From: Tribonema minus
Lineage: Eukaryota > Sar > Xanthophyceae > Tribonematales > Tribonemataceae
Assembly: GCA_017506865.1 (NCBI GenBank)
Contig: JAFCMP010000145.1
Location: 102,970-166,969, forward strand
Direction of reading: 5' to 3'
DNA: 64,000 nt
Shown here: one piece after another, positions 1,440-56,715 of the stretch
How positions within the stretch are numbered: position 1 is the first letter of the stretch
Layout: each line of letters begins with the position of its first letter
Made by a program: the position numbers and the translations under genes
The notes under the pieces: model-generated
Databases searched by the model: none
The model's input: the letters and a program-made list of their open reading frames with translations, nothing else
What the model was told of the DNA's origin: nothing

Positions 1440-2110
1440 GGTCACCAATAAGGCTAGGGTCAGGCCTGAGCTGTGCACCTGTGCAATGTTGGGATGGCGC
1501 GTCACACGGGACATAGCGCCTGCAATGATACCATCATGTGAGGTCCTACTTCTGATGGAAGTAATCATGGTGAAGGTAGCTTTTGAGGTAGGGTCTCAAA
1601 TAGAGCTAGGGCTAGGCCTGAGCTGCGCATCTGTTGAGGGTTAGGGTTACCCTAACCCTAACCCTAAGCTAGAATGGCGCGTCAAACAGGCCATATAGCT
1701 CCTGCGATAGAGTCATTACGCGGGCCGTACTTCTGGTGGGAAGAGTGATGGTGAATCTAAGGTTTGGGGCCGGGTCGCAAATGGGGTTAAGGGTTGGTTG
1801 GGAGCAGCAATGGTGAAGCTAGGGTTCCAGGTGGGGTTTGATGATAAGGTCAAGATGTAGGCCCGAGCACTGCACCTGTGAGGTGGCAGGCCGCAGCACG
1901 TGCACCTCTCTCAGATGCGGATGGTCGCTGTGTAGACTTCTGCAAAGCTCGGCCCTCACAGTGCCCGCAGTACAGTCATCCCGTGGGGTCTCGTTTCTGG
2001 TGATAGTAGTCATGGTGAAGGTAGGGTTTCAGATAGAGCAGGGCTAGGCCTGAGCACTGCACCTGTGAGGCACCAGGCTGCAGCACGCCAGGTGGGCCAG
2101 AGTGCCTGCA
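1440..2110 (-). repeat. Exon-end echoes downstream of ankyrin exon 10
   Basis: Diverged copies of the end of exon 10 plus its donor (CTCACAG followed by GTGCAGTGCTC on the minus strand) recur near 2046-2100, 1858-1925, 1612-1632 and 1450-1490. They are spaced by TTAGGG-like and GAAACCCTACC-like intron sequence. All lie on the downstream (donor) side of exon 10. Confidence 0.5.
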
Positions 2111-2240
2111 ATACAGTCATCCTGTGCGGTCGTGCTTGTGGTTGAAAGATTATGAAATGGTACACTTTAGGGTGTTTTTTATTATTTAGGGTCTGAGGTA
2201 GGGTTTCAAAAACAGCTAGGGTTGGGCCTGAGCACTGCAC

Positions 2241-5200
2241 CTGTGAGGCGCCAGGCTGCAGCACGCCAGGCGGGCCATCTGCTTCCGGTGCGTCTCCCTG
2301 CAAGGCCGGATTGTGCAATGTGCAGCGCACACAGTCAGTAAGATCACCATGACAACCATCACGCACTTGCAAGAGTGAACTGCACGCAGGGCGAGCTCAG
2401 CACACGGGCCTGCTTGCTGCCACATTTGGCTTTAATAAACATGGCTGCCGCTCATGGAGGTATGTATGCAGATAGCAGCTTTGATACCCAACCCCTTGCA
2501 TTCAAGGTGAAGCAGATTCTCAATCCCATCTCCCCTTGTAGTGCTGCACTCAGCAGCGCCAGTCGACAACAGGGCCCGAGCCCAGCTCTGATGGTCGATT
2601 GCACGAGCCATCCCAAGTGATGATGCTCAGCAATTGCCGCCGTTGGTTGTAGTCAACATGGTGCGGGCAGTGGAAGAAAGCCACGTCTCCCGCCGGTCGC
2701 TGTCGAAAACGATCAACAACCTCAAAGAGGTAACCGGTGGCGCCAAGGCTGGATGTTCAACAGCAAACACAATCTTGGCAGCCCCCCTTGCAGTGCAGCT
2801 AGGGGCCATGCCAGGCCCCAACACTGCCGCGACGCATCACAAGAGAGAGTGCAAGACGCGCTCAACAAACTGACATCGTCATCGTCTGCGGTGTCAAACA
2901 TGGCATAGCCTGGTGGTGATGCTCAACAGACTGACCTCATCATCATCATTGTCTGCCGTGTCGAACATGGCCACGTTCCCCAGTGACGGCATGGACGCAT
3001 GGCGCAGCGCAGGAACGTTCCGCGCAGCGGCGGCGGCGGCGGCAGCAGCTAGAGCACTGCCTTGCGCCTCTGCTGGGGTACTGTCAAGCACCTGCGCGCA
3101 TCGGTTTCAGCGGGACAAGGGGGTTTTCAGCGTGTAGCTAGCCCAAATAAGCAGGTACATGCAACCACGGCGTTAACCCACGCAGCGGCGGCAGCGGCGG
3201 CGGCGGCAGCGGCTAGAGCGCTGCCCTGCGCCTCTGCTGGGGCGCTGTCAAGCACCTGTGGATTGATTAAAGTGCAACAAGGCATTTCTGTGAGGGTTAG
3301 GGGTAGGGTTAGGGTTAGGGCTAGCAAGCGCGCAGGCACAGCTAATCAGACGAGCCGAAGAGGCGACGTCTGCACTTCATGTGTGAGGCACTGTCAAGCA
3401 CCTGCGCAGCAATATCATAGCAATAAGGAATTCTTTTCAGTGGTGCGGCGGGGCGTGCAGCAGAGCCTACCCTTGAGGTTGGTGCACTGTCCAGCACCTG
3501 TGCACATCACATAGAGGATATTGCACAATTACTTCAACACTTGAGGAAGATGCCACTGCAGGTACTTCCAGGCGAGTACTTGCAGCTTCTTGGCAAACGA
3601 TACTTCAAGTATTCCATAGGCCTCTGATGTGTTCTAACGCGATCATGATCTCACTGTTTTCACCACTAAAAATCTGGATTGATGGGCCTGTGCAGACCAA
3701 CAGTCGCTTTGTGGTGCAGAATCTTATACTTGTGGTACATAATCTTATACCCGAAGTACTTGAAATGAATACAGTGGTGCCATCATTTCCACTCGAAGAC
3801 GAAAGTACATACGACACTTTCAGACTGTCATACGACATGTAGATTCCTTACAGCTAGATGCCAATCATCTGGGCTTTTTCGCGCCCTGAGCGAGAATTAA
3901 TAAAAAGTACATACAGTAGTGTATTCCCAGCGTACAGTTTTTACTCACCTCTTTAAAGTACCGAATGACGGGTACTTCAAAGTATGTGCGGACCGCCCTT
4001 AAACGCCACTATCCATACATACAATATTGCTACATTTTGCACTTGGAGTAGTTGATGTGGATTACTGTTAAACCAGTGTATGTACAATGTTCACTCACCT
4101 CTTCAAAGTACCTAATGACAGGTATGTGCGGACCGCCTTTAAACGCCAGCGTCACCGCCGTGTCGCCCGACGCATCGGGCATCTTCAAAACGGTCGCCAT
4201 GGCGGTGGACGCCATCTCAACTTCAACTTTGGAGGCAGCGCGGCTCAGCAGCACGCGGCACGTGCTCAGGTGCCCACCCTGCACAATAAGAGCAGCGGGT
4301 AATTAATGAATGAGGGGATGGAGGTGGTATGTGTTTCTATTTTTGTTGATCAATGGTTCAAAAGAGCTGAGGCGCATGGGGGTTCGCTGTGGCAGTGACG
4401 CGCCAGCTCAGCCTCTATTTCAACTTTGGAGGCAGCGCGGCTCAGCAGCACGCGGCAGGTGCTCAGGTGCCCCCCCTGCGCAGCAAGCAGAGCAAACGTT
4501 CGGCATCAAGGGGATGGAGATGGTTTCACTTTTACTTTTGTTGTTCGCGATGGTTTGCAAGAGATGATAGGCATGGGCGTTTCGCTGGGGCAGTGAGGAC
4601 GGCGGCACAGCTTCAACTTCAACTTTGGGTGCAGCGGGGCTCAGCAGCACGCAGCTCAGGCCCTAACCCTATCCCTAACCCTAAGCAAGGCGCTGTGGCC
4701 ATTTGGCATCAAGGTGATGGAGGTGGTTTCATTATTAATCTTATTTGTCAGAACGGTTTCAAAGAGATGAGAGGCATGGGGTTTCGCTGTGGCAGTGGAC
4801 GCCAACCTAGCTTCAACTTCAACTTTGGAGGCAGCGCAGCTCAGCAGCACGCGGCACTTGCTCAGGTGCCCCCCCTGCGCAGCGAACGCATGAGTGATTG
4901 AATGAATCATCGACAGAGATGGGGAGCACAGTCCGCCAAGACTCTGACCCTAACCCTAACCCTAACTCCTGCTGCATCACAGGGCCCCCATGATAGGTGC
5001 AGCCTGTGTCCTGTGCACGAGCTTGCAGCTTCGATTCATCATGTTCTCAGGTGCCTCCCCTGCGCAGCAACTGCAGCGGGTGATTGAGTGGAGAGACTGA
5101 GACATGATGTCTGGGCGCCTCAAAACGAGAAGGCGCACTGATTGGGTTCGAGGGACAAGAGATGACCCTGCTAGACAACAGGGCAGCCGCAAGTACTCGG

Positions 5201-8200
5201 TGTGTGCTGACAGCAAAAGACATGACAAGCTTTGGGATTGTGCCGTTGCGATTGCGCCTTTGTGGCACAGTGCAGAAGCTTCCACTGAGTATGCGCTTGC
5301 CGACTCCATGTGCACATAGTTTGCGGGAGTATGTAGGTACACAGGCACATACTCCCAATACCTCTGACCACAAATGGACTACTGGAAGGAGAGCGGCTGC
5401 TTGCATGCTTGCAACGGTTTGGCCAGCAAACATCACGTATTGCGCATGACCAGCTGAAACGCCAAGAGCTACCGCACTCATGCGCAAGAACAGTAGCACG
5501 TCACTTCACCTGTGCAGCTGCGTGACGCGGCGTCGTGCCCTTTCCGTCTAACCCTAACCCTAATCCTAATAAGCTAGTCCAACCTCGAGGTTAGGTTATG
5601 AACCCTTACCCTAGCCCTGATACTCACCCTAACCCTACCCGACATATGCCACTTGAGTGCACCTGTGCTGCTACGTGAAGCGGCGTGGTGCCCTAAACCT
5701 AATCGCAACCCTAACCTGACCCTCTCACCCATATCCTAAACTGCTCGAGGCATGCCACTTGACAGTGCACCTGTGCAGCTGCATGAAGCGACGTCTTGCC
5801 CTGACCCTAATCCCAACCCTTGCCTAACCCTGATTCTCACCCTAAGCCAAGCCCCAACCCTGACCCTATCCCTTATCCGCACCCGACGCATGCCAATTGT
5901 GCGCACCTGTGCAACAGCGTAGAGCGGTGCCTTGCCCAGAATTCGAGTTGAGATTTATGAGGGTTGAAACCCTAACTATAACCCCAACCCTTACCCTAAA
6001 CCTAACCCTTCCCCTAAATCCAACCCTCTCAAATTCACCTGTGCAGCGGCGTGTTGCCCAGAGTGAGGGTTGAAATATATTAGGGCTGCAACCCTAACCT
6101 TCACGCAACCCTGACCATAAAGCTAACGCTAGCCTTAAGCCCAACCTCTCGAGTTCACCTGTGCAGCTGCATGAAGCGGCATCTGGCCCTGGGCGTCCGC
6201 CATCTGCTCGTCGCTGTCGGTATCGAGGAGCACTGCCACGACCTTGTCCGACGCATGCCACTATACATACAGCGCACCTGTGCAGCGGCGTGGAGCGGCG
6301 TCTTACAGCCCTACCCCTCACCCAAAGTCTAAACCTAAACTGCACGAAGCATGCCACTTTTGAAACCTGTGCAGCGGCGTGGAGCGGCGTTTGCCCTAAC
6401 CTTAAAAGTAGTTCATGCCCCTAGCCCCTAATCCTGCCCCTAATCCTCAACCCTAATCCTAAACCCAAACCTCTCAAATTCACCTGTGCAGCGGCGTGGA
6501 GCGGCGTTTGGCCCAGGGTGTCCGCCGCCTGCTCGTCGCTGTTGGCCTCGAGGAGCACTGCCACGACCTTGTCGCTGCCGAGCGCTGCCGCGGTGTGCAG
6601 CGCCGTCAGCCCCTCAGCGCTGCGCGCATCGCGCTTGATGCCGTTCGCCAGCAGCACCTGCACAGCACAACACACAGTCAGCGTCGAATGTGTGAGCAGT
6701 GGGTTAAAGTTAGGGTTAGGGTTAGGTTGGGGTTAGGATTAGTATTTAGAGTTAGAGTTAGGGTTAGGTCAAGGTTAGGGCTAGGTTGGGGTTAGGGTTC
6801 GGCGCTCCGCGCGTCGCGCTTGATGCCGTTCGCCAGCAGCACCTGTGCAGCGCAACACATAGTCAGCGTCGAATGTGTGCGCAGCGGGTTAGGGTCAGGT
6901 GAGGTTGGGGTCAGGGTTAGCATTTAGATTAGGGTTAGTTAGGGTTAGGTGGGGTTAGGGTTAGGTTGGGGTTAGGGTTCGGCGCTGCGCGCGTCGCGCT
7001 TGAAGCCGTTCGCCAGCAGCACCTGCGCACGCCGATTTTAGCCAGAGCATAACACATAGTTAGAGCCGAGTCGCGCTTGATGCCGTTAGCCAGCAGCACC
7101 TGCGCGCCAATTTGTGCCGGAGCACAACACATAGTTGGGTTAGGTGAAGCCGTCGCCCTGATGCCGTTCGCCGTCAGCATCTGCCCGCCAGTTGCATGGA
7201 ACTCGTCATATCACAAGCATTAAGGGTTTTAACTTGAAAGCATTCGCCTTCATGCCGTTTGCCAGCAGCGCCCGTGCGCCAGGTGCATGGAGCGTCGTTG
7301 AATTGAAATGTGTGAGCAATGAGTTCTCAGGGCCATCACCTATTCCTATCACTTACCCTAACTCTAACCCTTCTTGTGAGCACATCGACAGTAGATGGAA
7401 GCAAACGCCTGTCGCATGTTGAAACACTTCCAGGCGCCACGTTAACCCTAACCTTAACCTAATCCATGAAACATGTCGATGATTATAAGCATGCACACAT
7501 GAATGCTCAGAACAGTGTGTCTGCGGTAACAAGCTGCTGGGCATACAGTAAGCACAGTGGCTGTTGTCACTTCAGTTGTCCGCGTAAAGAGCATGCTGCA
7601 CAAGGGACAAAGGCCGACCTCCGAATTCGTGAGGCAGGGTGGTGAGGCGCCAGGCCTCTTAAGAATCACAATTTGTGAGCCTGCGCTGCATTGCGCAGGC
7701 ACCTTGAAGTTAGGGGTAGGGTTAGGGTTAGGTCACACCTGGCCTCACAGTGCTGCTGCGTCACGGGCGTGGGGGTTGGACTAGGACTCGGGTCCTCTTT
7801 CTGAGTAAAAGCGAGTACTCGATCTTCTCTTGAGGTGGCAGTCGTGCGGCCAGGATGTACAAAGGGCGGCTGCGCGCGGGATTCTCCATGTTCAAAGTCA
7901 GTCAGAATGCGCTCCAGAGGCCGTACCCAAGTGCACGTGTCTTGTTGAGGTGGCCATCACACGGCGAAGGTGCGTATACTCCGAAGTGATGCTTTGCACA
8001 CATTGCGTCTGCGCGGGTGTGTAACGCATTTGAAGATGTGTGCGTGCTTGTGTGTGTTGTGTGCGTCTGTGTCTCTGTGTGTGTTTGTGTAACTTATGGT
8101 AGGTTCAAGTTGAAGTGCCGTACCGCTTACCTTTGCCAGGTCCCCATGGTTGCCAGTGGCAGCAACGTGCAGCAGCGTGTGCCGCTCCTTACCAGCCGTC

Positions 8201-11200
8201 AGCGCGACAATGCTGGCACGATACGGCAGAGAGCAACACGCGTATGGCATCGGCTGACATTGAAGGCTGACACTGGCTTCAATGTACATATTAACAAGCA
8301 GGTGTGCATATGCATTGAACCAAACACCATACATCAGAAGCATATGATAAGCACGTATCACGTTATCCATGGTCAGCACTGAGGATGGCATGCCATCAGG
8401 ACTGATCACAGAAAGACTGGCAGAAGGCGAGCACGTATGGTATCGGCTGACATCAGCTCCAATGTCAGGTTACATGACAACAGCCAGGTGCATACATTGA
8501 ATCATATAGGTACTGTACTCGCAGTATATAATAATAGGCCCAACTCATGACCAGAGGGCAGCAGATGTACAGCATGAGCTGACATCAGCTCTGTTGTAGA
8601 AACAGACAGTGAATAGGCCAGCACACGGTGAGGTTGTGTCCTGTTCACTGACATGCCTGTTCATGCGGGTGTTGCATCCTGTTTCTCAACAATCACTTCT
8701 AGCAACACGTATAGGTATGCTAGCAGGGCGCACCACATCACACACAGAGTGCATTGCAGCAACACAAAACCTGTACAAGACAGAAGCTTGCGACAAGTCA
8801 CGACCGCAATGTGACAGCATGCACAGCTCACTCACGTTGAGGTTGAGTCCTGTTGAGCACTGACATAACTGTGCATGTTTACCTCCTAATTCTCAATTCC
8901 ATCATCACTTCTTCTGGCAACATGTGCACTAGCCGCGCGTCTTGTGTCTGCGTGGGTCTCTTGGGTGTCTATTTCTGGAACCGTGGTGAGCTATACACTC
9001 TCAGTAACAATGGGTGCCTACATTGACGCAAATACTGCTCAACAAAGCATATGGAAGCAGGTTCCATGTCATCCATAGCACCGTGGATGGCGTGGCATCA
9101 GGACTGATCACAAACAGAGTACTTCTAGAATGCATAACATATGCAGCTCTCTGATGTAGAGGGCGCGCACTACAATGGCATGGCAGTGCTCATCACTGGC
9201 TGCGCAAACAAATTAATATTCCATGGTGCACCGAAGGCATCCACTCCCTGCGAACTTCAACTCAATGAAGAGCTTCGCATTTCATTGCCACAGCGCTGCC
9301 GCAATAAACTCTGACCAAAATACATGCGATATTCACCTTGGTCTTGCAGAAATGCAGTACAGCAGGTAGGTAGTACGCGTTCTCTGTTGCCTCCACGGCG
9401 TATGTGACTAAAATACATGCGGTATTCACCTTGCAGATATGCAGTACAGAAGATAGTACGCATTCCCCTCTGCTGCCGCAGCAGATATGACCAAAATACA
9501 TGCAGTATTCACCTTGGTCTTGCAGAAATGCAGTACAGCAGGTAGTACGCGTTCCCCTTCGCTGCGGCAGCAAATATGGCATCCTTATCCATGACCCCCT
9601 CCCCAAAGCGCCCCCCCTTTTCCTGGAGATACGCCAGCACCTGAAAGTTGGCCAACGGGCGCAGACACAATGGTGGTAAGTCTCTGAACCTTGTCTACTG
9701 CAAGCACTATGAGCCGAATACCTGGCCGTAGAGTATGGATTACTAGTTTATTTTTTATTGTTTACTTACTAACCCTGCAGCCTTTCATGGCTCGCGATGC
9801 TCCAATAAGAATTAGGCTCAAGTGCCTACCAGAGTTGATGAGAGATCACTCTGTCCGGCTCGCTTTGGTCGAGGTAGATGCAACTTCGAATACAACTTCA
9901 AACACTTGTGCCTCCGCTGACACCGCTTGCACAACAGCCGTGTCAAGACAGCGGGCAAAAGACTAAGGTACATACGCCAAGATGTCTTGAACGCTACAGT
10001 ACACAACATATATATCGCTAAACGTTTGCTGTGGTCAGCCACCAACCTCAATGCAAAGTGTGCCGCAATGCTGAATCGAGCATCAATCATAGATCACACG
10101 CCTCATACTTGATAAACCCATATACTATGTAGAGCAGCAGCACAACGCTTGCATTGATTTCAACAATTTCGAGCGTTCCATGACAGTCAACACCTCCTTG
10201 TTGAGCAACAGCCTATGCTTCAGAGTACAAAAGGAATTCCCAGAAGCTGAAAAGATGACTTGAAGTTGACTTGCCTTGTACTTCTCAGTTGAGGCGTGTG
10301 GCTGCTCCTCTGGATCAATGGACTGCAGCACATAATCCAGTGCCGGCCTGCGGTTATGCAAAATATGAATACAGTATGAATTGAAGTTGACTTGCCTTGT
10401 ACTTCTCAGCTGAGGCGTGTGGCTGCTCCTCTGGATCAATGGACTGCAGCACATAGTCCAGTGCGGTCTTGCGCTTATGCCGGCCCTGGTTGGTGCACAT
10501 GACCTCAAAGTCGCCGCCAGATTCCTCCACGAACCAGCGCACAATCTGAGGTGCAAAAACAATGCAAGCGGCCGCTGTTAACTTCAGCTTAGTGTTCATG
10601 ATCTTGAAGTCGCCGCCAGACTCCTCGGCAAACCAGCGCAGTTGCCGCCACTTTGGGTTAGGGTTAGGGTTAGGGTTAACCCTAACCCTAATCCTCGACA
10701 CGCCAGCCATCTCAGATGTAGCGGAGGCGTGACTGTGCAGCTAGGCGGGGCGGGGGGGGAGTGTACGAGACAACGTGCCCCAGCTGTTGAGGCATAGCAT
10801 GATTTGAATCGATGCGCGCACGTGCGTGGCTCTCGTTTGTGCAGGCAGTGCCTTCCACGATGGCACATCGCAGGCGCAATATGTGCCAACAACACAGAAG
10901 AAGCAAATCCCTATGGGCGGACTGAAATGCAATGCTGTGGGCGCTAGGCGATACCACCATCAATTTTACGGGCGTCAAGTCAAGACTCGCCACTCAGAAA
11001 ATCATTCATATCATTCATGAATTCATTCACCTCAAGCTGGCCGTGCTCCGCGGCCCGACTAAAGGCATAATGGGGTCTTCTGAGGGCCCCGTCCAGCTCA
11101 CCAAGAAGAAATCATTGATGCATTCATAAATTCATGAATTCATTCACCTCAAGCTGGCCGTGCTCCGCGGCCCAGAAGGCGTTGTGGTTCTCTGACAGCC

Positions 11201-14200
11201 CTGACAGCTCATCAACAATATTTCTTTCATTCACGCCATTCATGAAGTCATTCACGTTGTTCATGTATTCATTCACCTGAAGCTGGCCCTGCTCCACGGC
11301 CCCAGCAGAAGGCATTGTGGGGTCTTGTGGAAGCCTCGTCTTGCTCATCAAGAAGCATCCATTCACGTCATTGATGCATTCATTCACGTCATTGATGCAT
11401 TCATTCACGTCATTGATGCATTCATTCACGTCATTCATAAATTATTCACCTCAAGCTGGCCGTGCTCCACGGCCCAGCAAAAGGCGCTGTGGGGGTCTTC
11501 TGAGGGCCCCAATCAACTCAGCAACAGAATTCACACGCCATCCATTGACTCATTCACAACATTCATGAATTCATTCACCTCAAGCTGGCCATACTCCGCG
11601 GCCGCCGGCCCAGCAGAAGGCGCCCCAACCAACTCACCAACAAAAATTCATACATGCCATGCATTGATTCACAACATTCATGAATTCATTCACCTCAAGC
11701 TGGCCGTACTCCGCGGCCCAGCAGAAGGCGTTGTGGGGGTCTTCTGAGGGCCCTGTCCAGCTCACCAACAAGAAATCATTCATGCATTCATGAATTCATG
11801 AATTCATTCACCTCAAGCTGGCCGTGCTCCGCGGCCCAGCAGAAGGCGTTGTGGGGGTCTTCTGAGGGCCCTGTCCAGCCATTCACAGCTCCTGCCGCAA
11901 CGAGGTGCAGCACAATGGCCTTGTGTCCATATGCGCAAGCCTGCAGTGTCGTGTTGAAGCCAACATCAGTGTGATGCACAGCTGTCAGTGTTTTCGGACT
12001 ATGATTGATTGGTAGTCCGAAGTATGATCACATGGCACAACGCAATATGATGGCTCTGTGTCCACACATGCAAGCATGTCGCATGGCTGTCGTAGCCAAT
12101 AGCAGTAGCATTCGTCATTAGTCTGTTTGATCCCACTGTACAGAGCTGCTGAGCGATGCCTTCGTGTCGCTATGCGCATGCTTGTGGACTGAGATACGAT
12201 TATGCTACATTGCCGCAAGAGCCTGCAGCAGATCATAAGCGGAAAGTTCAAGCTTGAATAGCATCCATGAACCTGCACGATCACATGATACACAGCCACT
12301 TTTGCAGCGCGATAACCTTGGGTCCGCATACGCAAGCCTGCAGAGCTGTGTCCAGCCGTGTATTGTGCAGCAAACCATGACGTGCCGCATGCATCGCCAC
12401 ATGTAAGATGAGATGCTTCAAGACCATTGTCATCTTTATAGCATTGATGATGTCACTCCCTTTCACATCCGTATCGATGCCAAATGACATGTCCGCCGCC
12501 AACGTCTTGCAGTTGAAACAAATTCAAATTCTGGTTGTTTTGTAAAACCAGCTGACATACTTCGAAGTAGCTGAAGTTCAAGAATGGCGATCAGGGTTGA
12601 AGTTCACTACTCACCTCCATGAGTCCAGTCACCCATTCACATCCGTGTCAATGCCAAATCACTTGTCAGCCACCACGTTTTTGAAGCTGCAGTAATGTCA
12701 AACTCTATGTTCTTCCAAGACCACATGACATGGTCGAAAGCGTGATCAGGGGTGAAGTTCGCGACTCACCTTCATGAGTCCAGTCACGCCATTCACGTCC
12801 GTGTCAATGTCAAATAACTTGTCAGCCGCCAGCTCCTTTTGAGAGGTACTCTGATGTCTAACTCTTTCGTTGAACAGATTGATATGTTGAAGTTCAAGAA
12901 TGGCAAAAGTTCGGTGTTGGAGTTTATAATCCACCTTCATGAGTCCAGTCACCCCATTCTCATCTATGTCAATGCCAAATGACTTGTCCGCCGCCAGCTT
13001 CCTGAAGCTGCAACTCATGTCAAACTGATTTGCTTCTTTGAACCAGATGGTAGTTGAAGTTGGAAAAATAGAGCAAAAATGTCACTCAGGAAGTTGACGA
13101 CTCGCCTTCATGAGTCCCGTCACCCCATTCACATTTGTGTCAATGCCAGATCACTTGTCCGCCTCCAGCTTCTACAAGCTGCAATCATGTGTACACACTT
13201 GTCTTGAAAACCAAGCTGATGATAGTTCAAGTTCCAAAATGGCACAAGTGCCAGGGGTGAATTAGCACTGTTTACCTTCATGAGTCCAGTTACTCCGTTC
13301 ACATCCGTGTCAATGCCAAATGACTTGTCCGCCGCCAGCTTCTTGACGGTCCTCATGTCGCCTTTCTCGCATGCCTCCAGCAGCGCCACCGCCTGCTCTC
13401 AGCAGCAATCAAAGACACGTGCAAGATCATGCGTCATAACAGATACCTGCCAGGAGGATTTGACTCGTAGTGCGGAGTAGGGTTGAATCTGAAGTTATTG
13501 AGTGCCACAGCTCTGAGATCATTGTTCCGACTACAGTTTATCGCATGCCTCCAGCAGCGCTACCGCCTGCTCTCAGCAGCAAGTAAAATTTGCAATAGAT
13601 GCACAAATTATGCATGGTAGCAGGCGTCCAGTGGATTTGACTTGTAGTGCACATTAGGGTTGACATTGAAGTTGATAAGTGCCACCACTTGATTTTAGAA
13701 CCACTGCAGTGTCTTGCATGGCTCCAGAAGCGCTACCTCGTACGCTATGCGGCAAACAGCAATGTAGAAGTGAACGGCAATCGGTACATTAATGCCATAC
13801 TTTCAAGTACTGCTATTGGCTGAAACGCGTCATGCATCATGAACCGTGTAGGATTCAGGGATGAGGTTGCTAGTAACAAAATACGAAGCACCTGTTAGCG
13901 TGTTATTAGGTGATTATTGATGAGGATTACTGTCCCACTGACCTCAGCCCTTCCTCTAGAAGCAGTCATTAACCCCATATCTAAAAACGAACACGTGAGA
14001 GCTTTCCATACTGAACACCCATGCCTCGAACGCAAAAAAGCTTGCACACATGAGTCTTTTGACAACTGTGGATATGGTGGCACTGTTTGACTCGTGGCCA
14101 ATTACCGCAGCAGCGGCAACCACGGTGATAGGTGCAAGCACTTCAATTTGACGCCCAATACACGTTGTCACCAAGAGCTCTACGATCTCTTTATTCGTTT

Positions 14201-14782: not shown

Positions 14783-15054
14783 GATTGCGTCACAAGCACC
14801 ACCTCCCAGTCCAGCCTCACGCCAGCGCGCCGCCCTCGCCTGTGTTCCTGCTGGCTGAAGGGACACTTCAAACTTCAAGTACCAGTTGAGTTTGCGAGTG
14901 AAGTGTTCAACCCCCCCTCTGTGTTTGTTGGTTGTAAACCACTCCAGATCTCTGGGGCACTGGGCACTGAGCGGTCGTCTGAGCAGCACGAGCACGGGTA
15001 GCTTCATGGTTACTCAAGGCTACTGCAACTGCAACTGCGGCGTGCAGTAATGCG
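14783..15054. promoter_or_regulatory. Shared intergenic promoter region of the divergent ankyrin and PX genes
   Basis: These 272 bases separate the proposed start codons of the minus-strand ankyrin gene (14782) and the plus-strand PX gene (15055). The stretch is moderately GC-rich with no obvious TATA box near either start. It contains repeated ACTTCAA-type words around 14865-14880. A head-to-head arrangement this tight suggests a bidirectional promoter, but that is inference from the gene models. Confidence 0.4.
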
Positions 15055-18000
15055 ATGGGGCTGGTCCTTTCTACGCTGGGCCTGGGCCTTACCTGGGCGG
15101 TGTGCTTGAGCCTTGTGCTGGCGGTTGCAGCTGTGCTACAGCTCCCCGACAATGTTGTCAGAGAAGGCATACGACCAGGGCTTGCAGGCGCCAGGTAAGC
15201 CGTTCTGCACACTAGTCCCGGCGACCTTACAGGCATGGACCTCACAAGAAGCAGTATACTATATATTTTTGTTAAATCGACTCGACGAAAAAGGGGCGAG
15301 CGACCCGGAAAGGTACAGCCTTTTTTGTAAATTGCATTTAAAGCGGGTCACGGGCATCACCTCAACTTTGCTTTCATCTGAAGTGCTCCCCCACTTCAAC
15401 TTGCCTATTGACACGCAACACACACATGCAACGCGCTGTTGACGTTACGCGCACGCGCGTACTCGATGCTGCAGAATTACATCTGCCTTGCCACTACACG
15501 GTGCGAGAAGTGCGGACGCAAGACAAACGAATTGGAAGCGGTGTTGCGTGAAGCTTACTGGGTGCAAGAGGCGCGAAAGTCGATGAGCGATGCTGTGGTG
15601 ATTTATTGAGCGCGCTTCAGACGCTGATGGGGCATGCGGGCAACAGGTGCAGGCGGCAGGTACAGCCAGCGGTGCTGTAGTCATAAATCAAATTACATGT
15701 ATTCATTGCAAGCCTGCAGCGCTGGAGCAGACACTGGCTAGTCGGCACCTCACAAATGTCAAGTGCATCAAAGCTAGCACGACACAATGTGGCATTGACA
15801 TTGAGTTCACGATTGCTTCACGATGATGCGCCCCAGCGACTACAACATGAACACTGGCCCTCGTCACCCGATTCAAGCTGCAGGCCACCACAAATACACG
15901 TCACCCTGCGTGCAATAACGTGCATTTCACTGGCAAGCGTGCAGCCTGCCGGTACACTGACGTCATTGCAAATGTGCACGGGACACCTCATGACACACCG
16001 TGACAATGTAACAGCGCAGCGCACAAGTGACAGCACACAGCTCAGCTCATGTTGAAGTCGTGTCCTGTTGAGCACTGACGTGGCTGTTCATGTTTGCCTC
16101 CCGGTTCTCAATGATCACTTCTAGCCACACACGCACTAGCCGAAAGTCTTGCTTCTGTTTGGGTGCCTTGATTGTCAATCTCTGGCACTGTGGGGAGCTA
16201 TACTCAGCAAAAAAGCTCAAGCCAAGCGTCAACTCGAACGTGACATACTGCAGCTGCTACGTTGACATGCGTACGTGGCCAGGAGTGCTAGTGGCAGTGT
16301 GATATGGCCCATAATCACATTCGCGTAATAGACTGCGTGAGGGAAGCTGGCGAGCACGGCGCACTGGAGGAAGACTCAATAAGCGTGTTTGCTCTCCTGC
16401 TGAGCACTGCTGCCACAGGGCCTGCTGCTGATCAAGCAAAGGCAAAACGCTTTCAATGCTGATTACAACAAGGGACCCCTTGTATAAACTCTCAACACGT
16501 GTTTTGCCATACTGCTGAGCACTGCTGCCACAGGGCCTGGGCGCTGCTGCGGCTCCTGGTGTCGGAATTGCCGCCCCCCCACAGTCCCGCCAGCAAGCGC
16601 GGGGGCGCCCCAGCTTCCTCCTCATCACTGACAGTTACGGCAGTTACGGCGCGGCAGCAGCGCTCGCCGTCCCCTCGCGCAGCAGCAGCAGCTGCAGCAG
16701 CGGCATCAGTGCTCAGCGCAGCTAGTGGGGATGATCCTGCGGGGGGAGTGGCAGTGGCGACGGTGAAGCCTGCGGCAGCGGCGGCGGCGGCGGCGGCGGC
16801 GGCGGGAGGGGGACGAACGCTGCTGCCTGCCGCCATGGCAGCAGCGGGCGGGAGGCACTCGCAGGTGCGGACTTGAAGTGCGCAATGAAGTCGGTGGCGT
16901 CGATGAGCGTAAGGGAGTGGTGCTCGAAACGCGCTTTAGAGCTGGTGACGTTGAAGTGCATGTGGGAATGGTGTTGCTTTCTTACTCTTGGTGGTGAACA
17001 TTTTGTACGAGCAAGTGTTGAAACTTGTGTCTAGACCGCAGCTGCAGGGCGCGAAGCATTTCAGGACCAGGTGGCTGGAAATGCTGCTGGGCAACTTCAC
17101 GCTAAGAACTTGAAGTAGCTGGCACGCATGTTGAGCACTGGCGGCTGATGCATTGAGTGTTGACGTAGCATGATTGGTGCAGGCGCTGTGCCTGCTCTGA
17201 CGTGCCACCTGAGTGCTCCTTCTAAAACCAGTATTATGCATAGCTGTCCACAGGCATTTTCCGTTCTTGCCATCTAAATCTCAACCATTGCTGCTGCAGA
17301 CCAATCAGCCACTTATTGTGTTGAAGAGCAGCTATGAGCTGCGGCCCGTGTCGCATGCGGTGGCCAAGCGATCGCGGCTGTAAGTGCAGCCTTGCAAGGC
17401 CTGACTGCAACACTTCGGCAACTGCGCATCAGCAACAACAGTTCAGGTTTTTGGTTACAACACCAAGCACTTGCTATTGCGGCTACCTCAACCCATTGCT
17501 GACGCTGCTGTCGCTGCCGCATCACCTACCCCCCTAGCCCTAACTGCAATTCTAGGCTGCGCGTGCCTCCTGGAAGTATTGTAGACCGAAAGCAGCGCCG
17601 CCAAACCCCAACAAGCAACGCCCCCTAACCCTTACCCCCCCCCACCCAATCCCGTGCCACTGCGCAGACGACGAAGCAAGCGCACAGGCGAGCGCGGCTG
17701 CAGTTTCTGGAGGGGTTGAGCGCTGCTGTTCACGAACCCTACCTTCAACCCTAGGCTGCGCGTTCTTCTGGAGGTAGTGTGAACCATGCAACACTGCCTA
17801 GGTAACCTCAACAATCAACACCGCCTAACCCTACCCCCCCCCCCACAATCCTGTGCCGCTGCTCAGACGGCGAAGCAAGCGCACAGGCGAGCGCGGCTTC
17901 AATTTCTGGAGGGCCTGAGCGCTGCTGTTCACGAACCGCGCATCGTCGACGCGCAGTTTGTCAGTTACAAAGTGGAACTGGCGCTGCCGCTGCGCCGAAC

Positions 18001-21000
18001 GTTGGCGGCGGTGCGTGTGGGGGATGCAAGGGGGGCGGGGGCGGGGGCAGGGGTAGGGGGGGAGGGGGAGGGGGGGGCGCGGCAGGACGTGGCGCAGTGG
18101 GCGGTGTGGCGGCGGATCACTGACTTTGCAGTGCTCAGGTGAAGTACGCTTAGGGTTGGACCAGGGTTAGGGTTGGGGTAGGCTCAGGGTATCTGAGGTA
18201 GGGTTGAAGTTGGGGCTCAGCAGAGCAATGTCTGATGGGAGGTGGCGCGGTGGGTGGTGCGGCAGCGGGTCACTTACTGGTCACTGACTTTGCAGTGCTC
18301 AAGTGAGTAGGGTCACTACTAGTAGGGTAGGGTTACTACTAGTAGGGTAAGGGTAGGGATAGGGTCAGGGTTAGGGTCGGGGCCAATTGGGTCTCAGCAG
18401 AGCCCTGCCTGACATGAGGTGGCGCGGTGGGCGGTGTTGCGATGGATTGTTGACTTTGCTGTGCTGATGTGGGTAGGGTTAGGGATAGGGTTTGGGTAAG
18501 ATTAGGGTTTTGGGGGTAGGGTCAGGGTTTAGGGAAGGGTTGGCGGAGCACTGACTTTGCCGTGCCCACGTGGGTGAAGTTGAGGTTAGGGTTAGGGTAG
18601 TATCAGATTAAGTTGGGACAGGGTTTGACGGAGTCCTGACTATGCAGTGTTGATGCAACTAGGCGTAGCGTTCGGGTTTGCCGGAGCAAAAGTTGCCCTC
18701 TTTAGTTGACCTCTGCAGGGCTGAAGGTACATATCATCGCAACCTGGTGGCACTGACTTTGCTGTGCGCAGGCAAGTAGTCTGCGGCTGTGCATCAGTGT
18801 GCTGCCGTAGCTGGCGCTGGAGCCATCTGAAGTTTGCGTTGCATTTGAATCAGCGAGGCCTGCGGAAGGCTGAGGCCTGAAGCTAGGGCAATGCTTAGGT
18901 TAAGATGCTTAGGTTAAGGTGAGGATGCCGCACCTGCAGGAGGCCACATAATGGTATAAGCTGACCAGGCTATAAGTAGGTCATGTGTCACATCAGTATT
19001 TGTAATTGAGTTGGGCTTAGGGTAGGTTGTGGACGACGATGGGGGTTTGAGCGGCCTATGGCGGATGAATATAATGTAGGCCCAGTGTAACGTCGCCAAA
19101 AGTGTACTATTTTGTGTTCAAACAAGAGTTGTTTTAGACTTTACACATGCATTGTTGTGCAACATGTTTCTTTCACGATGGTCAGGTACTGAGCCATGTG
19201 GGCGTCTTTGGCATACTTCACCTGGTGATGTTCCCCCTACGTTCTGCCCGCTGATCGGCAGAGAGCAGTTACTCTGTGACCTGGCTCAAATCGTCAGCAG
19301 CGCTCACTCAGCTGCACGGTCACGTTCAGCAAATAAGCAACAGTCTACTGCACATTGTGACATGCTATCACAGCGGCACCAGTGGCCTTCACGGTGACCT
19401 TGCCGTCACTTGCTGCAACCTCACAGTAAACTTCACACAGTGACATTACTTCACAGGCAACATTCCATCAGACGGCAGCGTTCCATAAGACGGCAGCAGT
19501 GATCTTCACAACGACCTTGTTTTCACACACGCAGTAAACTACACATGGTGACATGCCATCAGGGTGGAACAGTCATGTTAACAGCAACCTTCACGTCATT
19601 CGCTGCACCCTCATCATCAGGGCTGCCCTGCTGAAAGCGGAGGCTAATCACGGCGGCGGCGGCGGCAGCGGCACTGGCAGCAGCGGCGGCGGCGGCGGCG
19701 GCAACAGCGCAGTGTCCCTGCCTGTGCTGCCGCACTCACTCAGGCGGACATTTGAGCCTGATCACCTGGCGAAGCGCGCGGCACGGCTGCACCGCTTCAT
19801 GGAGGTGAGTGGAGCGTCGTATATTTTCAGTTGAAGTTCCCATGTACTTCATGTGCCTCGTGCGCAGCACGTCTGCACCGCTTCATGCATGTGAGTGAAG
19901 CGGAACGTCATAGATGATTAGTTGAAGTTAATCCATACTTCATGTGACTCGTGCGCAGCACCGCTGCACCGCTTCACGGAAGCGAGTGGAGCGTCGTACA
20001 TGACCAGTTGAAGTTTACCCTGTGCCTCATGTGACTCGTGAGCTCAGATGAACGATTCAGAAGACAGTTACGCCATCATAACCCTAATTCTAACTCTGAG
20101 TGGAACGCAGTGTTTTACATAGGGGCCGGCTGTTGCTCATCCATACCGCACGTGACTCGTGAACTCACATGAACTTCAAGGCAATTTTTTTCATTCACAG
20201 ACGTGAGTGGGGTGGTGTACATGGGCAGTTCAGTCACAGTTCTCCCACGCTTCATGATAATTGAATTGCAACAATGAAGTCGCCCTAACCCTAACCCTAA
20301 GCCTGAAAGCCGCAACTACTCCAAGTGTGTGCACCGCCTTGTAAGGCATCATTGTTTACAATCAGGTGTTGCGTGTATGCTCGTGGCACGCGACTGTCAA
20401 GCCTAAACCGCCGGTGTGCAACCACTGCTAGCGCAAACGTCAACTTCTGAGCACTCTGCTATATGAGAGTACATGTGCTGGCACCATCGTCATCGCTGCA
20501 GTCGCTGAGGTGACCGTTGAGCTGGTGCTTCGCAAGGCAGGCATCATCTCGTCGACAAGAGGTGGCAAGTGTAAAGTGTCAGCGAACTGGCCTCAAGTGA
20601 TACACCTCATGAGATTCATGTGATCCAGGCTGCGCTGCACGCTGCACTGTTTGGATAAATCAAATCGAAACGCAGTTTAATGATAATCAAGGGTGAGGCT
20701 CAAGTTGACTAACCTGACCCTAACACTAGCCCTACCCCTGGGATAGTCTTACACTGCGCACCCCTCTAGCATGCTGCTACAAACCAGACTCTCAACTCAA
20801 CGTGTACTGCTCTTCCCGCCCCAAACTCTGCCACAATACAATGTGGATATGGTGACACTGTTTGACTCGTGGCCAATTGCCGCAGCAGCGGCGACCACGG
20901 TCATTGGCGGAAGGCATTCAATTTGACGGCCGACGACACCTTGTCACCTACTAGTCTAGCTCTACGATCTTTTGATTCGTTTCCACGATACTGATACCCT

Positions 21001-24000
21001 ACATACCCCATGCTCTGATGGTGACGCTCAGGTGGTCCTCCAGGACCCTCTCATGCGCACGTCCCAAGACCTCTTCGACTTCATCACGCCGCGCGAGTGG
21101 GACGCGGCGCTGCCACAAACTTCAACTCCAACCCAAACTACAACTTCAACAACGCCCGCGCAGCACCGCCGCAGCAGCTCCCTGGCTGCAGCGGCAGCGG
21201 CAATGGCATCAGCAGCGGACCGCAGCACTGCTCAGCAATCATCCCTGGCCAATCAGAATACCAGGGCGGTAGCGGCGGCGCCAGCATCAGCGGCGGCGGC
21301 GGCGGCGGCGCTTGACGATGTGAGCAGTGGCGGCGGGGAGACCCCGGTGGCTTCTCCGAGGCTCGGTCTTCGGGACCTGGAACGCGCCTCAGAACAGTCT
21401 TCGATCGCGCTGGGGGAGCAGTCGCAGTCAGACTGCCCGCTGGGAGGTATGTATACAAGCGTGTCGAGAAGTTATGTGCCTGTGTACGCATGCATGCATC
21501 CCGTAAGCTGTATCGCGCGTCTCTTGATGTTTTGCAGCGACACAGAAGTGCATATGCAGAAGTGGTAGTCTATGCGCGTTGAGACACTTTCAAGTTTTCA
21601 CCAGATGCATGTAGAGTTCGGTAGCAAGCTTTTCCTCGACCCTGGGCGAGAATTAGTAAAATGTACTTTTGCAGTTCACATCTGGTTTCCTTAGTGAACC
21701 ACAAGTGCTCACGGTGTACTGCGCGTCTCTTGTTGATTTGCACTGGCACATATATACATACACAATACGCCTCTGTATTCCTGTGTGTACCACAAGAGCT
21801 CACTCACGCTGCACTGCGCGTCTCTTGTTGATTTGCACTGGCACAAAAGTACATACACAGTACTCCTCTGGATTCCTGTGTGAACCACAAGTGCTTTACG
21901 CTGTACTTTGTTGTACTCATTGCGTCTCTTGTTGATTCGCACTGGCGCAGAAGGCTCTGCAGGCGAGGGATACGAGCTCTCAACCTCCCCCATGGCACGA
22001 GGCAGCATGTTCTCAGCTATGCAGGGGGACGGGAGGGGTTCATTGAGCCCTACCGTCAACGACTTGGGAAGCCCTGCATCTGGCAGTAGGTGAGATCACA
22101 AGACGCTTGACTACTTTTGAAGTGCCTGTGATTCTCAGCGTGCAGTAAGCCCACTCGGGCGAAGCAGGCAGCTGAGTGGGATCAGACCCCAGCGTTCACT
22201 GGCGATATTATTTTGACTTGTGCTCAGAGTGCCTTGAACCTCAAGAAACTCGCTGAAAGTGCGATCCAGTTGTCATTAGTTCACTTTGGCCAATGGGTTT
22301 GGGAGCCTTGCCCAGCCTGTGGTGCAGCTCTGTCACGCCGGCACAAGTATGGCCCTCCCCTTGTATTTCTGTATAGCACTTGTAGTGCGACACACATCTT
22401 GAGATCTGTGTGCATACATGCATGCACCGCTGCCCACATTATCTAGCCAGTACTGCCATCTGGGGGCATGTACGCATTCGGCGCACTCGTACCGTCCCCC
22501 TTCCCCTCACCCCTGTCCTCATCATGCCCTACGCCACAGGCAGCATGGCACCCGCAGTTGCGCGCGCGCATTTGTATGCGATGCATTTCCAGTTGTTGCT
22601 ACTTTGTCGTAGTACCCTATAACGGTAGCGGTTACATGTCGTAGATTCCTCGTGTCGTTGCTTGCTTCATGCTGCAGTCCGTGCATGCACCGTGCTGCAA
22701 ATTCTGTCCACGATCGTGCGCCGATGTGTTTTGGTGTTGACGTTGACGCTGATCTGACCCTCATCGGTCTCGCTGAATCTGCAAGGCAGGCAGCGTCGTC
22801 TTCTCATGCAGCTACTGATGGCATTATCCCATGAAGTGACTAAAACATCACAAAACCTGTCTGTGCTCGAGCCCCTTTTCCCCACCCTCCTTTCACCCAT
22901 TCGCTATGGTAGTCCCATGGGACAATGTCAGGTGGGGCTCAAATTGTTCAGCCAGTTCTTGCCGCCCAGTCTGGTGCTCGTCGAATATACCTACCCCACC
23001 AATAGGCTCATGACTTTGGTGTCTCATGTGTAGCGCAGCTGGCAGTGGACTCGTCCCTGCATTTCAATGCCAGGTTACACTGCTAGCCGTGGTCGCCGAA
23101 TTTACGTTCCCCCTTCCTGCATGCATACGCTGCACTACATACATGCTGCACCGTCAAGCCCCAGCCCTAATGTAACGCTTCCGCTGCCCCGCCCCATATC
23201 ATCACCGCTCAGCTCGAGGATAGTGCGTCTGGCGGTGGCGCGCGCGTCCATCGTTACACGCTCCCTCGCCAGCGGCGCCACAGTCACATCAGTTACGCTG
23301 CCATCCCCAACCGCATGTTCCCCCTTTCTGCTTGCACATGCTGCACTACATACCTACTGCACCAATAAGCCCCGGTCCTAACGCTTCCGCTGTCCCGCCC
23401 CATGTCATCACTGCTAAGCTCAAGGATAGCGCCCTAACGCTGCTGCTTCCTCACCCAATGTCATCATCGCTCAGCACGAGGATAGCGGGTCTGCATGCAT
23501 ACGCTGCACTACATACGGTAACATACCGCACCCCCCCTAACGCTGCCATTGCCCCGCCCCATGTCATCATCGCTCAGGTCCAGGATAGTACGTCTGCACT
23601 ACATACTGCACCACAAAGCCTCTCCCCCTGACGCCGCTGCCATTGCCCCGCCCCATGTCATCATCGCTCAGCTCGAGGATAGTGCCCTAACGCTGCTGCT
23701 GCCCCGCTTCATGTCATCATCGCTCAGCTCGAGGATAGCGCGTCTGGCGGCGGCGCGCGCGTCCTTCGCCGCGCGCTCCCTCGACAGCGGCGCCACAGTT
23801 ACATCAGTTACGCTGCTAGCCGTGATCCCCAACCACACGTTCCCCCTTTCTGCAATGCACACGCTGCACCACTGCTTCGTCATGCCCCGCCCCTAACGCT
23901 GCTGCTGCCTCACCCAATGTCATCACTGTCAAACCCCACCCCTGACGCTGCTGCTTTCTCACCCCATGTCATCACCGCTCAGCTCGAGGATAGCGCGTCT

Positions 24001-24247
24001 GGCGGCGGCGCGCGCATCCATCGCCGCGCGCTCCCTCGCCAGCGGTGCCAGCAGAGGCGCGCGCCAAATCAAGGCCAACATGAACACGGGCTCGCTGCAC
24101 TTCAAGCCAGCCGCTGCCGCTGCCACGGGGGCGAGCTTGAAGTTGGCGGCAGTTGCGAAGCTGTCGGGGCTGAAGCGCGAGAGCGCGCCGCCGCGGCCGC
24201 AGAGCGACGGCCACGGCGCATTAGGCGGTGCTGATGCTCAGCTGTGA
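15055..24247 (+). CDS. PX-domain (sorting-nexin-like) membrane protein, seven-exon gene
   Basis: Exons: 15055-15194, 16534-16864, 17867-18138, 19621-19804, 21032-21446, 21951-22089, 23983-24247. Splice sites are AG/GT and phases match at every junction. The spliced frame is 581 residues and ends at the TGA at 24245. Residues 3-32 form a hydrophobic segment (signal anchor or signal peptide). Residues 50-155 are Pro/Ser/Ala-rich. A PX domain spans about 181-330: FVSYKVELALP strand, then VWRRITDFAVLR (237-248) matching the RR-x-S/T-D-F signature that includes the phosphate-binding arginine, a proline loop in SLPVLPHSLRR, the helix DHLAKRAARLHRF, and VVLQDPLMRTSQDLFDF closing the fold. Glycine-rich insertions interrupt it. 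PX domains bind phosphoinositides on endosomal membranes. An N-terminal membrane segment plus PX recalls the SNX13/14/25 group, but I see no PXA, RGS or nexin-C domain. The last exon's end is uncertain: a weak donor near 24232 could extend the gene. Confidence 0.72.
15195..16533. other. Intron 1 of the PX gene, with an exon 2 acceptor echo
   Basis: No further exon was found. At 16390-16425 a copy of the exon 2 acceptor and first bases (GCTGCCACAG then GGCCTG) precedes the real one at 16534, matching the echo rule. Confidence 0.5.
17555..17755 (+). repeat. Acceptor-side echo of PX exon 3
   Basis: A copy of the intron end and the first about 75 bases of exon 3 (CAG, then ACGACGAAGCAAGCGCACAG; encodes QAHRRARLQFLEGLSAAVHE) lies at 17660-17735. 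It is about 200 bp upstream of the true exon start at 17867. The copy lacks the rest of the exon and diverges after VHEP. Confidence 0.85.
18150..18790 (+). repeat. Donor-side echoes of PX exon 3 mixed with TTAGGG repeats
   Basis: Five successively decayed copies of the exon 3 end plus donor (CTGACTTTGCAGTGCTCA then GTGAGT or similar) lie at 18235-18310, 18418-18480, 18540-18580, 18630-18655 and 18740-18782. Just after nearly every copied donor sits a run of TAGGGTTAGGG-type repeat. Confidence 0.8.
18791..19620. other. Intron 3 interior of the PX gene
   Basis: No coding signal. It contains repeated TGACATGCCATCA and AACTTCAC words at about 19360-19560. Confidence 0.4.
19805..20215 (+). repeat. 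Donor-side echoes of PX exon 4
   Basis: Copies of CTGCACCGCTTCATGGAG plus donor GTGAGTGGAGCGTCGTA follow the exon at 19868-19905 and 19961-20000, with a remnant near 20195-20220. Each copy is preceded by CGTGCGCAG and followed by AGTTGAAGTT. The period is about 90 bp. Confidence 0.8.
20216..21031. other. Intron 4 of the PX gene
   Basis: No exon seen. It holds a CCCTAA patch at 20281-20302 and the dispersed repeat shared with 14060-14190. Confidence 0.4.
21505..21950 (+). repeat. Acceptor-side echoes of PX exon 6
   Basis: The intron end GCGTCTCTTGTTGATTTGCA, then CTGGCACA or CTGGCGCAG, and then AAG occurs at about 21515-21550 (diverged), 21722-21752, 21818-21848 and, as the used acceptor, 21922-21953. 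Confidence 0.7.
21588..21657 (+). mobile_element. Diverged 3'-end copy of RLE-A in PX intron 5
   Basis: The sequence from GACACTTTCAAG to CTGGGCGAGAATTAGTAAAA aligns with the RLE-A 3' end, with many substitutions and a deletion. It sits next to TGTAC. No clear target-site duplication remains, so it looks old. Confidence 0.6.
22090..23190. other. Intron 6 of the PX gene, upstream part
   Basis: No coding exon was identified. A decayed copy of exon 6-like sequence (CAGGCAGCATGGCACC) is at about 22538. Confidence 0.4.
23195..23982 (+). repeat. Acceptor-side echoes of PX exon 7
   Basis: Five copies of the acceptor plus exon start (CATCACCGCTCAG then CTCGAGGATAGCGCGTCTGG) lie near 23203, 23405, 23462, 23565, 23660 and 23715. 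The copies at 23203 and 23715 extend through the RLAAARAS-like coding part and then diverge. The true exon starts at 23983. Confidence 0.85.
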
Positions 24248-25320
24248 ACATGATGGCGGCGAGGGCAAAGCAGTGCACAGCGCCAGCAGCTGCAGAGCAG
24301 CGATTATGGCCCAGCTCGGACGTGGTGCTTGGGCCAGCAATTGTGAGCTGTTGGTCGAGACAGCGCTCTATTGCGGCCGCAGAGCCATGGCTGTGGCCGC
24401 ACAGCGACGCCTATGGCCCTGCAGGAGGGCGCTAAGGCTCAATCATGGTGGCTGCGGTCATGAATATGTCGGGACTAAAGTGAGGCAGCGCTCCGCCGCG
24501 GCTGCAGCGCGGTGACTAAGGGGCCTAGCCGGCGGCGCTGACCCTCAGTTGTTTCTAACAGCAATGCTTACGTAATTGTTGGGGCAATCAGCGATCTCAG
24601 TGCTCAGCCACAACTGTGGAGCGACGTTTGCAGCTCGCCCGGCGGCGGCGTTGAGAGTCAGTGATGATGCATATGCGGCAGTTACAACATCATGATTGTC
24701 GGGGCTCGTGCGAGAGAGTGCCTGGCGGTGGTCACAGAGCGGTGGTGCTGGCCCACAGGCCAGTGCCGACGATCAGTCTTGATGCCATTCAACAACTGCC
24801 ATGGCCCCCAGTCGCTGGCACGTAGCACTGGTAATGTTGACAGCTGCAATGTAGCTGGCGAAGCGACACGGCTGTCGCGCCGCCACGGCCGGAGGAGCGA
24901 TGCTTATAGATGGCCATACATGGCCACCGGCGATCAGCGACCGATACAGCCTTGCAACACCTCAGCGTGTGCACAGAAACACGAGCTTGAAGTTGATGGC
25001 CACAGTGTACTCAGATTGTACAGTCAGCTGACATGGGGAGTTGGATATGCCAAACTGGCAACTGACTTGTGTTCGTCGTCACAAAGCATAATTCCGATGG
25101 CGACAAATCGCAGGTGCTTAGCTAGTGACCTCCACTTGGCATGGGTGACCTGGCCCCATGCAGTGCCACAGCTCAGCGAGAAAGCATTAAATAGTGACGC
25201 CACCTGCGCAGCTCGCCTGCAGACCCATCACACGCACACAACCAATTTTTCCTGTCTTGATGAGTCTGCAGGTACATGTACATGCAGCCAGGGCTGCGTT
25301 GGCACTTTGAATTCTTTGAG
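24248..25320 (+). repeat. Decayed copies of the PX exon 7 3' part
   Basis: Degenerate copies of GTCGGGGCTGAAGCGCGAGA and following sequence recur near 24345-24420, 24465-24535, 24590-24650, 24700-24770 and 24850-24910. A 240-codon open frame spans much of this (24692-25414), but it is made of decayed repeats and runs into retroelement sequence, so it is not called a gene. Confidence 0.55.
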
Positions 25321-25535: not shown

Positions 25536-25966
25536 TATGATGTTGGTGCTCGGAGCAGTCATCTAGCCTAAGGCATGGCACTGTTGCGCATTTGCTCAGC
25601 TCTCGCAGTAGCAATCCATATGGCGTAATGTTTGTGAGTTATTCTCACATGGCGGCGACTGAAGGGGGCGGACAGATGGACGAGGGCGTAGTGGGAGGGA
25701 GGTGCCATTTGGTGATGATGTTTTGAAGTGAGTCAATGCGCATTAAGACACCTTCAGTTGCCAAATGATACTTGTACTTATGATCTTGTATTTATGATAC
25801 TTGTACTTTCATAAACTTCGTGGGCACATGGTTAGCAAGATCGACATCAACCATCTGAGCTTTCTCAATCTCAAGCTAGAACTTTCTAACAGTAAAATTG
25901 TATGAAGTCTTTCTTATGCATATGGCGTGGCTGGGCAGCCTGCAGGTCAGCTGTGCTTTGCGTACT
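25536..25966. other. Spacer between RLE-C and RLE-A insertions
   Basis: No gene or strong repeat was seen apart from ACTTGTACTT words. Confidence 0.5.
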
Positions 25967-56705: not shown

Positions 56706-56715
56706 AGTACATGTA

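Follow-up and report, generated by a model that had tools for sequence, protein, structure and literature searches.

Introns of Tribonema minus contain tandem copies of their own splice junctions

Why should the introns of a gene contain, over and over, short copies of the ends of the very exons that they separate? The question is raised by a 64-kb stretch of the genome of Tribonema minus (158.18 Mb in 554 contigs), hereafter designated the window (contig JAFCMP010000145.1; C145:102970-166969), the right edge of which coincides with the final base of the contig. In an ankyrin gene (minus strand) and a PX gene of the window, introns upstream of an exon carry copies of its acceptor and start, and introns downstream carry copies of its end and donor; these copies are called echoes below. 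The ankyrin gene gave matches to ankyrin-repeat families, and two length-limited searches, confined to the top word-sharing candidates, found no annotated ankyrin protein of T. minus. The protein P0121 (the NCBI model of the PX gene) matches the PX domain, and the PX-gene protein translated from the window is 88% identical, over the entire query, to JKP88DRAFT_354308 of T. minus. The lengthening of introns is usually ascribed to transposons and slow insertions and deletions; the observations described here indicate that the introns of T. minus most probably lengthen by tandem duplication of segments straddling the exon-intron borders, with the protein left unchanged.

Fourteen acceptors and 14 donors of the ankyrin and PX genes, placed by eye or taken from the NCBI model, were searched on the predicted side over 2.5 kb, using probes of 60 exonic and 60 intronic bases and accepting matches that scored at least 22 and above all 100 shuffles. 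An uncertain PX exon near 17301-17385 was left out of the tests, and the first PX exon was tested on its donor side only. Echoes were detected at 17 of the 28 junctions (9/14 acceptors and 8/14 donors) and spanned the junction at 15 (7 acceptors and 8 donors), amounting to 54 echo copies. The initial annotation had ascribed echoes to nearly every exon, which describes the ankyrin gene (7 of the 8 exons tested, the exception being 8131-8212) but is slightly strong overall, since the PX gene shows them at 5 of 7 exons, the exceptions being the first exon and 21032-21446, and few are seen in genes whose exons are large or whose introns are shorter. A self-comparison of 1-26 kb was dominated by direct local repeats, with 58 direct versus 2 inverted high-scoring segment pairs (HSPs) at distances of up to 3 kb. 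Moreover, when 40-base exonic probes were run on both sides of each exon together with their reverse complements, exon starts matched upstream at 7/14 exons and downstream at 0/13, exon ends matched downstream at 9/14 and upstream at 0/14, and the reverse complements gave no match at all.

The pattern had also been claimed for a third gene at 57-62 kb, where the single exon tested (about 57647-57794, minus strand) has two acceptor echoes upstream (57889-57983 and 58043-58133), one donor echo downstream (57435-57513), and no wrong-side echo at score 22. Echoes thus recur there on the right sides, but this gene exemplifies the pattern less well than do the ankyrin and PX genes, because self-comparison of 57.4-62.1 kb yielded no more than 3 direct HSPs and no inverted one.

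The same arrangement was found at kinesin loci elsewhere in the genome. A kinesin search gave 132 exon matches in 49 clusters, of which 14, chosen for wide span and many hits and hence biased to long introns, were taken at 10 kb, the remaining 35 lying outside this sample. With a probe threshold of 19, a score that the best of 60 shuffles reached in 3 of 316 probe-flank pairs, exon-start probes from 55 exon cores matched upstream at 19/55 and downstream at 0/55, and exon-end probes matched downstream at 14/55 and upstream at 0/55; mid-exon probes matched upstream at 5/48 and downstream at none, and the reverse-complement controls gave 0 throughout. A simple splice-site score identified 68 sure junctions (37 acceptors and 31 donors) among 110 exon sides, and echoes were present at 21/37 acceptors and 13/31 donors, spanning the junction in 20 and 13 cases, respectively (33/68 in all), with 80 copies. 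Direct HSPs again prevailed, by 204 to 10 over the 14 loci and by 75 to 1 in 27 contiguous introns, that is, introns whose flanking matches adjoin in the kinesin profile, so that in window and kinesin loci alike the copies are adjacent to their source and run in its direction, as tandem duplication requires. Side-specific polarity, the absence of which had been named beforehand as contradicting the proposal, therefore held in both samples without one wrong-side match at the thresholds used. Likewise, the statement that complete exon copies are absent was borne out, inasmuch as no kinesin exon (0/55) had both ends copied on one side and none of the 33 nearest kinesin echoes reached 95% of its exon, the deepest covering 162 of 176 bp.

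These observations can be explained in outline by the following series of events. A segment straddling an exon-intron border, comprising the exon edge, the splice site, and the adjoining intron, would be duplicated in tandem and in direct orientation beside its parent exon. If splicing then keeps the exon-proximal site, the surplus copy would stay in the intron, which would lengthen without any change in the protein. Duplication across a donor would place the copy downstream of the exon, and duplication across an acceptor would be the mirror case; a duplication confined to an exon, or one that takes in the entire exon, would change the encoded protein and presumably be lost. Repeated rounds could produce the arrays, which contain up to eight detected copies. 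Tandem duplication together with purifying selection on the protein suffices to produce both the polarity and the absence of whole-exon copies, and therefore these two features call for no separate mechanism and provide no extra evidence. Thus, the model put forward in the initial annotation, in which junction-spanning segments duplicate in tandem and surplus copies become intron, is well supported, but it does not account for the focus on borders, and its premise that splicing keeps to the real sites is a supposition.

Several results weigh against the generality or neatness of this explanation. As many as 42 of the 110 kinesin exon sides were dropped as unsure, and the window junctions were set by eye. 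Two of the 14 kinesin loci (L039 and L044) had no echo at any tested junction, and 9 of the 27 contiguous introns are free of repeats. At 25 other kinesin loci, searched with 1.5-kb flanks and consisting mostly of large exons, exon-start probes matched upstream at 0/25 and exon-end probes downstream at 2/25, where in many cases the end of the match probably does not coincide with a junction; mid-exon probes gave one match on either side, as did their reverse-complement controls. Two CCT chaperonin genes, whose matches lie about 0.2-1.1 kb apart, gave 1/14 exon starts and 0/14 exon ends in the strict test; all 6 of their HSPs were direct and none inverted, and 4 of these touch an exon on the predicted side. 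Furthermore, clean abutment, with exonic plus intronic extent about equal to the shift, was seen in only 7 of 48 nearest echoes, the others overshooting or leaving an unmatched gap. Echoes are common in the sampled long-intron genes and sparse in the other samples. Repeat coverage increases with intron length, both in the 27 contiguous introns (rho 0.40, P 0.04) and in an unfiltered set of 41 kinesin introns selected without regard to contiguity (rho 0.35, P 0.02), and about 30% of the 67 kb of intron in the latter is recognizable local repeat.

The copies themselves were further characterized in terms of size and decay. The median shift of the nearest echoes from their parents is 164 bp (interquartile range, 126-198), with 45 of 48 shifts falling between 83 and 327 bp, and the echoes reach a median of 54 bp into the exon. 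In 19 arrays of at least three copies, the alignment score declines with distance from the exon in 14 (mean rho -0.40, P 0.01), whereas identity is only marginally related to distance (mean rho -0.24, P 0.056); the reported fading of similarity is thus discernible in the score but weak. Among 105 junction-spanning echoes from the kinesin loci and the window having at least 10 bases on each side, identity to the parent was 0.86-0.91 in exonic parts and 0.78-0.83 in intronic parts, corresponding to divergences of 0.09-0.14 and 0.17-0.22. Kinesin echoes showed 140/1069, 108/1062, and 213/1045 mismatches at codon positions 1, 2, and 3 (0.131, 0.102, and 0.204), respectively. This decay fits one-sided neutral drift, in which changes at positions 1-2 accumulate in the echo alone, whereas position 3 and the intronic bases are free to change in parent and echo alike. 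Because the codon-position rates fit this scheme, the echoes appear to be untranslated, and translated echoes were rejected on the same rates.

The principal alternative is ordinary random tandem duplication at an equal rate everywhere, junction-spanning copies being just those that are visible and tolerated. For this explanation, polarity and the missing whole-exon copies need nothing further, intron-internal families do exist (6/28 in the contiguous and 26/57 in the unfiltered introns), and exon-anchored pairs, having one side constrained, stay recognizable longer. The exonic depth is also near uniform, although deep copies are deficient: in 30 kinesin cases the mean was 54 bp versus 68 bp expected under uniform ends (P 0.015), and depths above 85 bp were seen 3 times versus 9.8 expected (P 0.002), a deficit for which either selection or mechanism could be the cause. 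On the other hand, repeats are concentrated at borders to an extent that equal rates do not predict. Of the 27 contiguous introns, 18 have exon-touching repeats and none has internal repeats only, and 22 of their 28 families touch an exon versus 4.9 expected; uniform placement predicts 2.6-6.8 when the unit length, the usable exonic depth, and the intron length are varied, also with the repeated portion of each intron subtracted from its length. The excess persisted among the more similar families (11/15; 2.7 expected), in the ankyrin and PX genes (14/18; 3.2 expected), and in the unfiltered introns, where 31/57 families touch an exon (4.6 expected), or 28/53 (7.7 expected) when the best pair must do so. 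When, in addition, exon families were held to 5 points higher identity, the numbers were 11/25 (3.6 expected) and, under a stricter setting, 7/16 (2.1 expected); these 5 points allow for the detection bias toward exon-anchored pairs without being a full model of it. Relative to uniform placement, repeat families are in 3- to 8-fold excess at junctions, and duplication alone is insufficient to explain this. Random duplication at equal rates is accordingly a possible but rather doubtful account.

It is conceivable, and we put it forward only tentatively, that exon-intron borders in T. minus are preferred, not merely tolerated, sites of duplication. As a conjecture, units that measure about 164 bp (126-198 bp for the middle half) and that extend from a point in the intron to some 55 bp within the exon might arise by slippage or flap errors between nucleosome-sized replication steps; the exon would then hold a positioned nucleosome, and introns would grow outward as a by-product of border chromatin. 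The measured quantities are the unit length and the border excess alone, and their link to nucleosomes and replication is conjectural. Exonic depth increases with exon length in the 30 kinesin cases (rho 0.40, P 0.03), which is at odds with a fixed distance from the border.

In another explanation, double-strand breaks healed with telomeric repeats would produce both the duplications and intronic TTAGGG tracts. Such tracts are strongly enriched, the 140 kb of kinesin loci containing 34 that are telomere-like versus 0.05 in shuffles, and in the window some echoes are, by eye, adjoined by tracts (6799 and 6979); however, only 6 of the 34 lie within 20 bp of a repeat end, compared with 7.4 expected from random non-exon places. 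Telomerase or break repair as the driver is unlikely and was rejected, the tracts not being tied to repeat ends. In the kinesin loci L031-L044, intronic (TTAGGG)2+ tracts of either orientation have a frequency of about one per 4 kb, and tracts are present as well within 1-26 kb of the window (e.g., 6701-6799, 5547, and 10654-10690). The telomere-like part of one junction region used in the genome search described below is about 84% identical to arrays near the ends of several contigs.

The echoes might instead be functional, serving as alternative exons or as spare splice sites that aid exon recognition. The splice dinucleotide is indeed kept in 85 of the 105 junction-spanning echoes (GT in 38/45 and AG in 47/60), and P0121 includes, in our reading, one echo as an exon. 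Nevertheless, the dinucleotides are conserved about as well as the neighboring exonic bases, which is the outcome expected of one-sided neutral drift; no protein constraint is apparent, the mismatch rate at codon positions 1-2 being slightly more than half of the average divergence of intronic parts; and complete exons are not copied; a functional role is therefore improbable. Because of this similarity to the adjoining exonic bases, selection is seen neither for nor against the decoy sites, and since splice dinucleotides are not specially lost, intact decoys with exon context persist next to the real sites. The spliceosome may ignore them by exon definition. In the kinesin loci L031-L044, G+C content is 0.631 in exon cores and 0.557 between them, a difference that could aid exon recognition among decoys.

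Introner-like or other mobile elements carrying splice sites are a highly improbable source and were rejected, since, for all that the repeats are intronic and include splice sites and that a reverse-transcriptase frame is present in the window, genome searches with two junction regions (40 of 188 candidates being scored in one of them) found local copies only and no dispersed ones, except for the telomere-like part of one region and a 44-bp match on another contig, and inverted copies are rare. Haplotype or paralogue copies of the two loci were likewise not found in this genome search. The reverse-transcriptase frame (26090-29100, minus strand; PF00078) probably belongs to a retrotransposon. 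It is adjoined by a stretch of about 90 bases, near-identical by eye at 3820-3910, 25960-26060 (reverse-complemented), 56620-56710, and 57290-57390, which also occurs in an ankyrin intron and is perhaps the end of an element.

In the ankyrin gene (all exons on the minus strand), the first exon tested, 13276-13392, has acceptor echoes at 13537-13587 and 13712-13758 and donor-side copies at 13046-13163, 12880-12994, 12747-12829, 12568-12671, and 12452-12499, the last consisting of the exonic part only. Exon 11812-11981 is accompanied by seven donor-side copies within 10979-11751, including 11334-11393 (intronic part only), and exon 10396-10545, which uses a GC donor, by an acceptor-side copy at 10607-10640 (exonic part only) and a donor echo at 10241-10334; both arrays were also detected by TRF (Tandem Repeats Finder). 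Donor echoes of exon 9513-9640 lie at 9388-9452 and 9283-9382, and no echo was detected for exon 8131-8212. Exon 6484-6657 has acceptor-side copies at 6799-6899, 6979-7029, 7071-7103, and 7240-7325 and eight donor-side copies within 5505-6396. Exon 4099-4278 has acceptor echoes at 4419-4524, 4615-4727, 4815-4922, and 5040-5085 and a donor echo at 3932-4008, and exon 2936-3091 has acceptor echoes at 3196-3282 and 3445-3508, with none above threshold on its donor side. Direct repeats at 1436-2315 resemble, by eye, the donor echoes that another ankyrin exon, near 2260-2400, would have; the junction of this exon is putative.

In the PX gene (plus strand), exon 16534-16864 has an acceptor echo at 16375-16430. 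Exon 17867-18138, whose translation falls within the part of P0121 matching the PX domain, has an acceptor echo at 17609-17727 and donor echoes at 18238-18371, 18413-18528, 18542-18593, and 18751-18800. Exon 19621-19804 has donor echoes at 19867-19952 and 19953-20040 and no acceptor echo, and none was detected for exon 21032-21446. Exon 21951-22089, which is our own reading and is omitted from P0121, has upstream copies at 21715-21750 and 21818-21849, both consisting almost entirely of intron sequence. The last exon, 23983-24249, is preceded by seven acceptor-side copies within 23149-23922, one of them an intronic part only; by our reading, the NCBI model takes, within 23685-24249 of the window, an acceptor echo near 23738 as exon.

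Tandem genomic duplication is a genuine route of intron gain according to the part of the literature consulted (PMC3443670). The closest parallel is a potato RdRp gene (PGSC0003DMG402000361), in which a tandem duplication spans an intron-exon border (Ma et al. 2016, PMC4974935). As described in the portion of that report covered, the exonic part of the upstream copy turned intronic and most splicing signals were inherited, much as appears to occur in T. minus; there, however, a single event in one gene created a new intron through a cryptic donor, whereas in T. minus pre-existing introns appear to lengthen at many borders of several genes, on donor and acceptor sides. The same source describes an Arabidopsis TOUCH3 duplication comprising a whole intron with flanking exon sequence (PMC4974935). 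In the classical (Rogers) model, duplication of an exonic AGGT segment gives rise to a new intron (Gao and Lynch 2009; Hellsten et al. 2011; as described in the parts of PMC3443670 and PMC4974935 covered). Tandem duplication and the concealment of added DNA from the protein by splicing are common to that model and T. minus, but in the latter the duplication affects junctions already present and need not create an intron; indeed, existing junctions rather than exonic AGGT segments were spanned at 33/34 kinesin and 15/17 window echo junctions.

Introners, as far as covered in their account (PNAS 2022, PMC9860276), resemble the echoes in being a repeat-driven source of intron sequence in many genes, but they insert in many genes, whereas the echoes searched match the adjacent exon only; similar copies in unrelated genes were not found with the two junction regions within the candidates scored.

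Tandem exon duplication, in which gene segments are copied locally in tandem, shares this local tandem character; unlike it, T. minus yielded no complete exon copy among the kinesin exons or their nearest echoes, and the codon-position rates do not suggest a translated copy.

Ectocarpus, a brown alga, is a stramenopile relative. Its introns are long, with tandem repeats relatively even over site classes, and border echoes are absent from the part of the account covered (PMC12477816). Among the literature matches listed, which lie outside the subscription literature, no description of intron lengthening by junction duplication across many genes was recognized in the parts seen.

Since every copy can be compared with the exon from which it derives, duplication, decay, and the loss of decoy sites are measurable within one genome, and the 85 echoes with intact dinucleotides near real sites constitute a natural experiment on splice-site choice. 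Gene predictors can mistake echoes for exons, as seems to have happened in the PX model P0121. Collectively, the echo pattern is real, occurs in several genes, and is well explained in outline by tandem duplication across splice junctions, and the preference for borders and the handling of decoy sites are testable questions in T. minus.

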